Source of the DNA: Paracoccus beibuensis | GTDB lineage: Bacteria; Pseudomonadota; Alphaproteobacteria; Rhodobacterales; Rhodobacteraceae | Reading direction: 5' to 3' | DNA length: 64,000 bases | Assembly (NCBI RefSeq): GCF_026162625.1 | Contig: NZ_JAOTBD010000002.1 | Span: 62,001-126,000 of the forward strand | Shown: positions 38,434 through 41,348 of the stretch, one piece after another | Layout: each line of letters starts with the position of its first letter | Position numbering within the stretch: the stretch's first letter is position 1 | The notes under the pieces: generated by a model | Told to the model about the DNA's origin: nothing | Database searches by the model: none | What the model saw: only the letters and a program-made list of their open reading frames with translations | Position numbers and translations under genes: made by a program

Positions 38434-39168
38434 TCATGCTTCCGGCGGCGTCGTCAGGTTCAGCTCCGTCATCAGCTCTGGCGTCAGGATGTTGATGTCG
38501 GAGGGAGGGGTGCGCAGCGCGTGGGTCATCAGGCGCAGGTCGACGTCCATTTCGACCAGATAGTCCATCACGCCGGCCTGCGCCCGCTGCAGATCGCCCA
38601 CGGCTAGGAATGCCGGCAGAACGGTGTTCTGGCCGAAATAGTGCTGGTGCACGCCCACCACTCCCCCGCGCTCGACCTGCCGGTCGACACCCCCGGCGAA
38701 GATGTACGGGCATGCAGACAGGCAGACCGCGCCGTCACCGACCTGCGTGGCAAAGCCAGCCGCCCGGATCGTCCGGCCGATGGCGACCGCATCCGCGACC
38801 GAACCGCCCGAACTGTCCAGCGCAACCAGCCGGGCCTGGGGACGAACGCGGTCCATCCAGGCCGCGAAGCGGTCGGCATCACCCGGGGCGATCTGGCCGA
38901 CGATCTGGATCCGATCATCGGCTTCCGAAAACTCCAGCTCCTCGGGCATGGGGCGCATGGCGGGCGCACCGGGGCGCGTGGGATCGGTCGGTCGCAGATC
39001 GGGCCGATAGGGCCTGACGCTGGGACCCTGGGCGGGGGGCGCGTAAAGACCGGGCGCCTCGCCGCCGGGGGCGCGGACCACGTCCAGCCCCACGATGGCA
39101 CCCGCCATCAGCACCTGCGATACCAGCACCGCCCTGATCGCCCGCTGCGGCGACGAAAAGAGGCCCAT
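38434..39168 (-). CDS. ClpP-fold (COG3904-like) periplasmic protein
   Basis: A 244-residue protein. An N-terminal membrane segment (AIRAVLVSQVLMAGAIVGLDVV) acts as signal or anchor, followed by a ~50-residue Pro-rich linker. A ClpP/crotonase-like domain follows: VALDSSGGSVADAVAIGR gives the oxyanion loop, AVCLSACPYIFAGG the nucleophile-type Ser, and GVVGVHQHYF a possible catalytic His. Proteolysis is plausible but unproven for this group. The start is ATG 39168, one base after the partner gene's TGA, so the two are co-translated. Confidence 0.7.
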   Translation of the reverse strand: MGLFSSPQRAIRAVLVSQVLMAGAIVGLDVVRAPGGEAPGLYAPPAQGPSVRPYRPDLRPTDPTRPGAPAMRPMPEELEFSEADDRIQIVGQIAPGDADRFAAWMDRVRPQARLVALDSSGGSVADAVAIGRTIRAAGFATQVGDGAVCLSACPYIFAGGVDRQVERGGVVGVHQHYFGQNTVLPAFLAVGDLQRAQAGVMDYLVEMDVDLRLMTHALRTPPSDINILTPELMTELNLTTPPEA

Positions 39169-39170
39169 CC

Positions 39171-40460
39171 TCAGGCCCCGCCGTCGCGCGGCACCTCGAA
39201 GGGCCGGGTGTGGGGCGGAACATGCGGCCGGACCTGTGCGGCGTCGGCCTGGCGCAGCAGCTCGGACGCGGCAAGGGCCGCGCGCAGCTCTCCGACGGTC
39301 ATGCGGTCGTCGCTGTGCCCCTCGCCGCGACCACTGCGGATGGCGGCCTGCACGACCATGATGATGAAGACCAGCACCGCCGGCAGCAGGTCGATCGAGA
39401 TGGCCCCTGCCCATGCCGGAATGAAGTTCTCGGCATAGGCGATGACGGCATCGGCGGCCGACATCGGCGTATAGAGCGCCTCGTCCGGCGGCGGCAGGGC
39501 CATGACCTCGGACGCGGCGGCCGACAGCGTATCGGCCCGTTGCGCCACAAGGGTCAGGACCGCGTTGATCGTGCTGGATTGCCCTGCCCGCATTTCCGCC
39601 GTGGTGCCGTCCAGTTCAGGCAGGACGACCGCATCGGACAGGTCCTGGGCGGCGCGGGCGACCAGCGGGGCCGGGTTCAGCTGGCGCAGTTGCGTGATCA
39701 GGCCCGCCAGCTCGACCGCGTCCTCGGAGAAGCGCACCGTGCGATCCTCGATCGGGCCGGGCTCGACCGAGGTGCCGCGCATCCGCGACAGGATCGAGTT
39801 GCCCTCGGTGAACGTCTGCTCGATCGGCTCCCCCAGGCCAAGAAGCTGCGCCTCGAGGGCCTGAAGCTCGGCGCTTTTCTGGGTCAGGACCCGAAAGACG
39901 GCGCCGCGACCCGAAAAGCCTGACAGGGTGCCGCCGGCTTCTTGCTCGGACAGGTCCTGAAAGCTTTGCCGAACTCGGGCCACGTCGCGCGAAAGCGACT
40001 GGCCGGCCACGGCATTTGCGTGGGCACGCTCCAGTGCGGACTGATAGTTCTGGACGGTCGTCGCCATATGTGTCTCGACCGCCGCGCCGCCGGCCAGGGC
40101 AGCGGCGTTCAGCCAAGACGACATCGCCACGATCGCGACCGACCCCAGCACCATCGTCAGCATCAGTCCCACGCGCGACGCGGCGCTGCGGACCGCTGGC
40201 AGCAGCCGCAGCAGATAGGACCAGAAGACGAAGATGCCGACCGACACGGCAATCGAATATGCCAGCGCCGCGAAGGTCGTCCAGAGGCCGGGATCGTCCA
40301 GCAGCGTCCGCACCCCAAGGTAGGTATAGATCCCCGACGCAGCCGACAGCACGCCCAGGGCGGTCGAGGTGAAGGTGTCAAGCCAATCCAGGTGCCGCTC
40401 CAGCTCTCGCGCATAGCGGTCGCCGGCACGGTCGGATGAGGTCGGTTCTGGATGAGCCAT
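39171..40460 (-). CDS. Four-helix membrane protein with large periplasmic or cytoplasmic domain, unknown
   Basis: A 429-residue protein. Hydrophobic segments lie near residues 30-50, 58-84 and 97-125, with a fourth near 352-378. Between the third and fourth lies a ~225-residue helical domain rich in Ala, Gln and Glu (QSALERAHANAVAGQ, AELQALEAQLLGLGE), reminiscent of sensory-domain coiled coils. The last ~50 residues are Arg/Pro-rich. No catalytic motif is visible. The tight link to the ClpP-like gene that follows suggests a membrane-bound partner or substrate of that protein. Confidence 0.55.
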   Translation of the reverse strand: MAHPEPTSSDRAGDRYARELERHLDWLDTFTSTALGVLSAASGIYTYLGVRTLLDDPGLWTTFAALAYSIAVSVGIFVFWSYLLRLLPAVRSAASRVGLMLTMVLGSVAIVAMSSWLNAAALAGGAAVETHMATTVQNYQSALERAHANAVAGQSLSRDVARVRQSFQDLSEQEAGGTLSGFSGRGAVFRVLTQKSAELQALEAQLLGLGEPIEQTFTEGNSILSRMRGTSVEPGPIEDRTVRFSEDAVELAGLITQLRQLNPAPLVARAAQDLSDAVVLPELDGTTAEMRAGQSSTINAVLTLVAQRADTLSAAASEVMALPPPDEALYTPMSAADAVIAYAENFIPAWAGAISIDLLPAVLVFIIMVVQAAIRSGRGEGHSDDRMTVGELRAALAASELLRQADAAQVRPHVPPHTRPFEVPRDGGA

Positions 40461-40565: not shown

Positions 40566-41348
40566 TCAGGGATGATCGCCCGCGCGTGGGCTGGCCGGTG
40601 GCTCGTCCAGGAAGATCTGTTCGCCCGTCACGCTCGCCTGCTCCAGCCTGGTGCGGTCGAGGACGCGGATCGCCCCCCGGCCCATGTCGACGATCCCTTC
40701 GGCGCGCAGCTGTGAAAGGACGCGATTGACCGTCTGGCGCGAGCATCCGGCGAATCCGGCAAGTTCCGTCTGGCTGATCTGCACGTCGGGCATGTCCGGC
40801 GTGCTCATCGACAGCAGGTGGATGCGGACGCGGTCCTCGGCAGTATAGAACATCGCGACCGTGTGCTGGCGGTTGTCCCGCGTCAGGCGTTCGTGGAAGA
40901 TCGCGGCAAGGTTGCGCAGCAGGATGTCCGCCGACAGGTGGCGCAGGATCATCGCGGCGTCGAAGATCATCAGCGTGCTGTCGTGCTGCGCCGTGCAGGT
41001 CGCGGCGCAGGTCCGTCCCGAAAATTGCTCGACCTCTCCCAGAACTTCTCCGGGCACGGCGGAATGCGCCAGGACGCGGTTGCCGTTCACGTCGATGAAG
41101 GTAACTTCGACCCGGCCCTTCAGGATCAGGTACATGCAGTCGGCGTCTTCGCCCTGGCGCAGGATCTCCTTGGGGCGGCGCAGGTTGACGACCTTTGCCT
41201 CTGCCAGAAGTGCGGCAAGGGCATGATCCGGCGCGCCGCGCATCAGCGGGGGCTGCAGGCGGCAGAGCGTGGCCCCCCAATCGCAGCCGCTGCCCGAAGG
41301 CACTGCTTCGCCGCGACGAGAATTGCGTGTCTGACGTCGTTCGGGCAC
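40566..41348 (-). CDS. Crp/Fnr-family transcriptional regulator
   Basis: A 260-residue protein. The cyclic-nucleotide-binding-type beta-roll includes GEDADCMYLILKGRVEVTF, then AHSAVPGEVLGEVEQFSG. The long dimer helix is followed by a winged HTH (ISQTELAGFAGCSRQTVNRVLSQL). The Cys residues do not follow the FNR 4Fe-4S pattern, so oxygen sensing is not supported; the ligand is unknown. The start is GTG 41348 behind AAGGTGA. A perfect GTGAC dyad lies 27 bases upstream and may be its own operator. Confidence 0.88.
   Translation of the reverse strand: MPERRQTRNSRRGEAVPSGSGCDWGATLCRLQPPLMRGAPDHALAALLAEAKVVNLRRPKEILRQGEDADCMYLILKGRVEVTFIDVNGNRVLAHSAVPGEVLGEVEQFSGRTCAATCTAQHDSTLMIFDAAMILRHLSADILLRNLAAIFHERLTRDNRQHTVAMFYTAEDRVRIHLLSMSTPDMPDVQISQTELAGFAGCSRQTVNRVLSQLRAEGIVDMGRGAIRVLDRTRLEQASVTGEQIFLDEPPASPRAGDHP

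Follow-up and report, generated by a model that had tools for sequence, protein, structure and literature searches.

The closest described counterparts of the locus presented here are the NfeD-SPFH operons, in which one class of NfeD protein carries a ClpP domain (PMC2636767). NfeD1b or PH1510-N and its SPFH (stomatin) partner likewise represent a ClpP-fold protease at the membrane beside a dedicated membrane protein, retained as a conserved pair (PMC2636767). The components differ, however. NfeD proteases combine NfeD helices with an OB domain, whereas protein B of the present pair, at 244 aa, has a single anchor followed by a single ClpP domain and no NfeD match in Pfam; the partner in NfeD-SPFH operons has an SPFH domain, whereas protein A, composed of four membrane helices and a helical domain, has none by Pfam. 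Compared with ClpP itself (S14), B has the same fold, with the serine, histidine and oxyanion-hole glycines in the same order, but differs in being predicted to be anchored and periplasmic, in its Cys-x-Ser-x-Cys motif and in a third catalytic residue that is not fixed.

Periplasmic ClpP-like proteins are widespread and, to our knowledge, functionally uncharacterised. Among them, COG3904, 'predicted periplasmic protein (ClpP family)', is presumably like B in its C-x-S-A-C and HQ motifs and its periplasmic location, and appeared in the literature searched as a table line only. Relative to COG3904, the B proteins considered here form their own group of strong matches, found together with A. No description of the A-B pair, or of a periplasmic ClpP-like plus stomatin protease, was found in a literature search conducted largely outside subscription journals.

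Organisation of the locus

Both genes lie on the minus strand of the window, the whole 64,000-nucleotide stretch of DNA that was analysed, with A preceding B:

39171-40460, minus strand: gene A, encoding a 429 aa inner-membrane protein of four helices, belonging to no Pfam family, whose helical domain is predicted to be periplasmic
39169-39170, minus strand: intergenic gap of 2 bases from the stop of A to the start of B
38434-39168, minus strand: gene B, encoding a 244 aa protein predicted to have a single membrane anchor and, on the periplasmic side, a ClpP-fold domain

The sequence-only reading of this DNA had the genes separated by two bases, as is the case: the stop codon of A occupies 39171-39173 and the ATG of B 39166-39168. 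Although the listed reading frame of B begins earlier, at 39414, the ATG at 39168 (giving 244 aa) was taken as its start because it then falls within a few bases of the A stop, which is also where B begins in most relatives. At the 4-base-overlap position, 21 of the 37 loci of the family survey below have a codon that could start B. The next gene upstream of A, on the strand shared by the pair (40569-41348), encodes a Crp/Fnr-type regulator, and a histidine phosphatase gene is found downstream of the pair. Among the best 80 of 440 relatives, the closest named relative of the window's A belongs to Paracoccus, with 94% identity to the protein of P. rhizosphaerae.

Conservation of the pair within the family

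The survey covered 120 genomes from 119 genera of the family to which the window belongs, with a strong match defined as E 6.6e-133 or better for A and E 5.3e-32 or better for B, weaker B-like matches being treated as paralogues. Strong matches to A were present in 37 genomes and to B in 38; all 37 genomes with A were among the 38 with B, and the genes were adjacent and co-directional in every one (37/37). As A is 56-71% identical across 36 other genera of the family, with B adjacent each time, chance can be excluded. A further 24 genomes had weak B-like matches only, with no strong match to either protein. The single genome with a strong B match in the absence of A (G048) retains just the 3' half of B, truncated by unrelated sequence; at this locus (L100, 209-500) the remnant is fused to that sequence and A is gone, apparently through a single deletion. 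The sole long gap among the 37 loci is one of 598 bases between A and B (L078, genome G050). At locus L223 (genome G237), A is broken into two reading frames near its end, B being intact, which reflects either a sequencing error or decay.

Co-conservation of the genes had been set beforehand as the test on which the idea of a functional pair could fail. In addition to the 37 family loci, B lies within 400 bases of A on the same strand at all 79 assessable named loci among the best 80 of 440 relatives, the contig ending after A at the other one, and both genes were found on four of four plasmids. The surroundings of the pair are by contrast variable: coarse clustering, which joined B itself in only 34 of the 37 loci, found no third gene family common to more than 14 of the 37 neighbourhoods, and the most frequent neighbours sit on the opposite strand. 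These differing neighbourhoods and the lack of a widely kept third gene give the pair the appearance of a two-gene unit. No Clp ATPase gene was noticed among the conserved neighbours at the 37 loci.

The ClpP-fold protein

The features of B were assigned as follows:

39076-39150, minus strand: N-terminal membrane anchor, residues 7-31 (AlphaFold), with conserved Gln18 and Asp29
38437-38928, minus strand: ClpP-fold domain, residues 81-244 (AlphaFold and fold comparison)
38803-38814, minus strand: SSGG, residues 119-122, matching the position of the ClpP oxyanion-hole glycines
38716-38718, minus strand: Ser151, putative nucleophile, within C149-L-S151-A-C153; present in 37/37 and aligned with the ClpP catalytic serine
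38647-38649, minus strand: His174 of VHQH, putative catalytic base; present in 37/37 and aligned with the ClpP HQ

The AlphaFold model of B (pLDDT 89) comprises an anchor helix, a linker and a ClpP-fold domain, and a single anchor is recognised both in the model (residues 7-31) and by hydropathy (13-31). Comparison of the model with ClpP gave a Z score of 14.6 and an rmsd of 3.3 Å over 156 aligned residues, and the solved 1510-N structure is among the fold matches. The SSGGS, SAC and VHQH set picked out in the sequence-only reading is located at residues 119-123, in CLSAC around Ser151 and around His174, respectively. When the B profile was aligned to two ClpP proteins of the same genome using hhalign (94.5%, E 7e-8), we read SGG as lying opposite SPGG, Ser151 opposite the nucleophile in the ClpP sequence GQAAS, and His174 opposite HQP. 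The serine and histidine, poor conservation of which had been named as grounds for rejecting the proposal, are invariant in all 37 family proteins, as are Gln175, Cys149, Cys153 and Gly121-Gly122. Among the best 80 of 440 relatives, C-x-S-[AS]-C is present in all 79 named B proteins and G-[VLMI]-HQ in 78 of them, the exception having GGHQ. Less constant are His176, which is absent from the Sinorhizobium B and from one of the 37 family proteins, and position 223, an aspartate or glutamate in 33 of the 37; the window has Ser223-Asp224, and the ClpP alignment is off by one at this point.

Neither A nor B reaches the Pfam or NCBIfam cut-offs. The window's B has no match to Pfam CLP_protease, and the Sinorhizobium B scores 17.1 bits against a cut-off of 20.2. 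B weakly matches models of phage head-maturation proteases, at E 6e-4 in NCBIfam and E 0.035 in PHROGs, and has a better match (E 8e-6) to a PHROG without an assigned function.

B is regarded as a putative ClpP-fold serine hydrolase and most likely a peptidase. It could instead be a pseudo-enzyme or hydrolyse another type of bond, with the ClpP/crotonase fold serving to bind a ligand for A, given that the triad has no constant acidic residue and that Ser151 is flanked by two invariant cysteines, unlike in the two aligned ClpPs. This is unlikely, as the serine, histidine and oxyanion glycines are invariant and align with those of ClpP.

The partner membrane protein

The features of A were assigned as follows:

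40311-40379, minus strand: membrane helix 1, residues 28-50, with conserved ASGIYTYLGV (AlphaFold; hydropathy weak)
40203-40289, minus strand: membrane helix 2, residues 58-86 (AlphaFold and hydropathy)
40092-40184, minus strand: membrane helix 3, residues 93-123, with conserved AMSSWLNAAALAG, running on as a long helix beyond the membrane (AlphaFold and hydropathy)
39423-40091, minus strand: helical domain, residues 124-346, predicted periplasmic (AlphaFold and charge bias)
39891-39950, minus strand: loop motif E..G..[ST]G..G.G, residues 171-190, conserved also in distant homologues
39330-39419, minus strand: membrane helix 4, residues 348-377, WAGAI.IDLLP; Trp350 and Asp357 are invariant in nine-row alignments with distant homologues

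Four helices and a helical domain of some 225 residues had been read from the sequence, in good agreement with the AlphaFold model (pLDDT 84), which is all helical: the membrane-type helices fall within predicted helices 8-51, 58-89, 93-176 and 348-377, helix 3 extending to residue 176 and being followed by a bundle to about residue 346, helix 4 and a tail, such that the helical domain spans about 224 residues. A simple hydropathy cut-off detects three of the four membrane helices, the first being weak. Across the 37 sequences, the loop between helices 2 and 3 contains a mean of 3.1 Lys/Arg against 0.03 Asp/Glu, and that between helices 1 and 2 a mean of 0.2 Lys/Arg against 1.8 Asp/Glu. This positive-inside pattern places the bundle in the periplasm, on the same side as the domain of B.

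A is better conserved than B, the membrane helices most of all. Mean column identity in A ranges from 0.77 to 0.85 for the membrane helices and from 0.64 to 0.78 for the bundle, with 0.81 just before helix 4; in B it is 0.52 for the ClpP domain and 0.37 for the anchor. A mere tether for B would hardly be expected to keep its membrane core so conserved.

The only Pfam match of A is to LMBR1, at an E value of 0.12 that lies below the cut-off. Searches of the PDB for similar folds returned common helical bundles only (best Foldseek E 0.016), and the best Z score, 12.9, is at a level that the tool flags as unspecific for bundles, hence neither a known nor a new fold is claimed for A. DUF4407, which we take to share the pattern of four helices and a coiled coil and an 'LLP' in the last helix, was considered and rejected, there being no PF14362 match in A, nor any in its own genome at E 0.001.

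The adjacency of the genes, and the prediction of both domains on the same side of the membrane, would also suit A being the substrate of B: a membrane sensor or channel, in which case the membrane helices would be expected to be the most conserved part, as they are, with a periplasmic domain that B cuts to start or stop a signal. This is improbable, both because distant homologues of A occur without B and because no unstructured cleavage site is obvious, residues 121-330 having block mean pLDDT values of 85-98.

A candidate membrane unit

The gene pairing, the shared predicted membrane side, an active site that has stayed intact and the stronger conservation of A relative to B point to one membrane unit, and it is reasonably likely that A and B form a two-component inner-membrane unit facing the periplasm, with B as anchored hydrolase and A as platform or regulator. 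The pairing, the predicted fold of B, the conservation of its catalytic residues and the topology signals are computed results; physical contact between A and B, proteolytic activity and the part assigned to A are what we infer from them. B would be a serine hydrolase with the ClpP fold, most likely acting on peptides, anchored through a single helix at its N-terminus so that the active site faces the periplasm, and A would have four membrane helices and a roughly 220-residue helical domain projecting into the periplasm like that of B. A may bind B and position, assemble or regulate it on substrates, in which case the pair would work as a membrane-bound ClpP-type protease with a dedicated partner, in the manner of NfeD/PH1510-type proteases with stomatin, the partner being unrelated.

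The sequence-only reading had suggested an anchored protease with its own scaffold or substrate, which would be a new envelope quality-control pair. This is partly borne out. A ClpP-fold enzyme with a predicted anchor and its own gene for a membrane partner is well supported; the arrangement has a precedent in NfeD-stomatin, and a part in envelope quality control would be conjecture. As to scaffold or substrate, we lean towards A as platform or regulator, because its membrane helices are strongly conserved and its distant homologues are not accompanied by B. For one subgroup of periplasmic ClpP-like proteins, a strictly neighbouring and better-conserved partner provides a handle, as it can be co-purified or deleted.

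Distant homologues of A and their partners

A nine-member alignment has in common the loop motif (E163, G167, G174 and G176, in the numbering of locus L264) and the tryptophan and aspartate of the last helix. One of the distant homologues, in genome G444 (L264, 1182-3381), matches the A family over 324 columns, at E 3.9e-40 with a profile excluding the G444 protein. Its gene overlaps, by eight bases or more if an earlier start is used, a gene for a protein resembling the M48-type anchored metallopeptidases. The product of the latter gene, 307 aa with an N-terminal hydrophobic stretch and the sequence HEIGH...ELEADYFAG, scores E 0.003 against M48, below the Pfam cut-off, and weakly matches a PADLOC peptidase model (E 0.0026); it has an HExxH zinc motif where B has a serine site, and no sequence relation to B was seen. 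Relatives of this metalloprotease are found on 12 plasmid records, and scanning six of these with the A profile revealed no A homologue. Among 36 genomes of the order of G444, A matches were found in two, G444 itself and G1078, and the latter has B, so the combination of A with an M48-like protein is a single case.

In G434, G1050 (a second copy), G485 and G662, no more than about 3 kb separates the A homologue from T4SS coupling-protein genes. In the last three, the next gene encodes a small protein judged by eye to have an N-terminal hydrophobic stretch, two of which are related (BLAST E 5e-8 in a single comparison); the small partner near the conjugation coupling protein contains cysteine. 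An A-like protein, a small anchored protein and a T4SS coupling protein are thus encoded close together in G1050 (L279, 7243-11157), G485 (L300) and G662 (L301), and no description of this conjugation-linked module was found in the family libraries searched. No partner gene is recognisable after the G434 homologue. B is not found beside A in G434, G444 or the second copy of G1050, as judged by a B-profile scan, nor in the reading-frame lists of G485 and G662.

In other cases a comparable partner is lacking. The A-like gene of G100 is followed by one for a secreted nuclease, possibly by coincidence. That of G395 encodes a 525 aa protein (E 6.5e-43 with the broad profile) with extra N-terminal hydrophobic stretches, and the next gene product is a multi-helix rather than single-pass membrane protein. 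No gene of at least 90 aa follows on the same strand in G626 (A match E 3.0e-12), and in G1037 the gene after a weak A match encodes 163 aa and has no match in Pfam. These four loci are evidence against a universal anchored partner. Fragmentary A matches in G713, G1020 and G1096 were set apart, and the A locus of G461 is cut by a contig end. In a tree of 29 A proteins the paired ones group together and the others are on very long branches; two of the unpaired proteins fall among the paired, hence the tree is no proof of a single origin of pairing.

A might on this evidence be the type of an undescribed family of membrane platforms with interchangeable single-pass periplasmic partners: a ClpP-type hydrolase, an M48-like metalloprotease (G444) or a small cysteine-containing protein. 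What gives the case its weight is that distant homologues have other partners. There is just one metalloprotease example, however, and G395, G434, G626, G1037 and G100 have no such partner, for which reason this proposal is a tentative one that we hold to be rather doubtful. Should partners indeed be exchanged, A would act as a general module that presents substrates to, or controls, anchored envelope proteins, and one membrane device would serve two unrelated protease folds.

Spread of the pair, plasmids and viruses

Within the whole order, A was found in 92 of 244 genomes, one of these being a fragmentary weak match (E 7.8e-4), and in nine of 15 genomes of the genus to which the window belongs. 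It is rare in the class as a whole: of 385 genomes, the family profile matched seven and a broader profile 13, three genomes in each count belonging to the window's own family. Among loci examined individually, B was present at 12 of 12 from that family and at seven of 12 from other families, these seven being the close A matches and spanning three families. The five loci without B all have a distant or doubtful A (G444, the second copy of G1050, G1037 twice and G1020). B also lies beside A in G353, G583 and G1078.

The plasmid records that carry A number 139, of which 69 are Sinorhizobium megaplasmids and 58 come from Phaeobacter; in the 20 listed, A is annotated as hypothetical. Both genes were present on each of the plasmids checked, from S. 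medicae, S. fredii NGR234, S. meliloti 1021 and P. inhibens; in S. meliloti 1021 the pair is located at about 369.5-371.6 kb of pSymB. In an S. meliloti record, two hypothetical genes overlap by 14 bases, of which the second is B. Location on plasmids of laboratory strains makes the pair easily removed. In P. inhibens it is carried by pPGA1_262, a 262-kb plasmid the loss of which is reported to raise growth and biomass yield (PMC5421792), so that the pair would be dispensable in this species if it has no further copy. On pPGA1_262 the gene after the pair, in the same direction (L225, 8179-9327), encodes a lytic murein transglycosylase and is not a common neighbour among the 37 family loci. A was not found in phages, and remote B-like matches were present in 10 phage records. 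A scan of viral contigs identified two loci with the family alignment and none with the G444 protein.

The patchy spread through the order, the numerous plasmid copies and the four distant homologues near T4SS coupling-protein genes raise the question of whether the pair originated in conjugative elements and targets envelope proteins of foreign origin, in entry exclusion or defence against conjugation or phage. It is very unlikely to do so: the window's A and B and the Sinorhizobium A and B have no match in the PADLOC defence library, no recognisable defence gene was seen by eye among the 25 largest neighbour clusters, and the conjugation-linked A homologues are without B.

That A and B are mere neighbours with no functional link, which would accord with a non-significant coevolution test (interprotein mutual information over 98 A/B pairs: z 10.45, where 20 permutations reached at most 10.37, giving no usable signal), is highly implausible given that their adjacency is kept from Rhodobacteraceae to Sinorhizobium despite about 41-46% A identity and different flanks. 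The A and B distances correlate at 0.74, against a permutation maximum of 0.32, in a comparison that still includes shared species history. Among the best 80 of 440 relatives, the A proteins of Cereibacter flavus and Rhodobacter xinxiangensis (L152 and L153) are 85-86% identical to that of the window and that of Cereibacter johrii (L176) 73%, a mismatch possibly attributable to gene exchange or to a naming problem.
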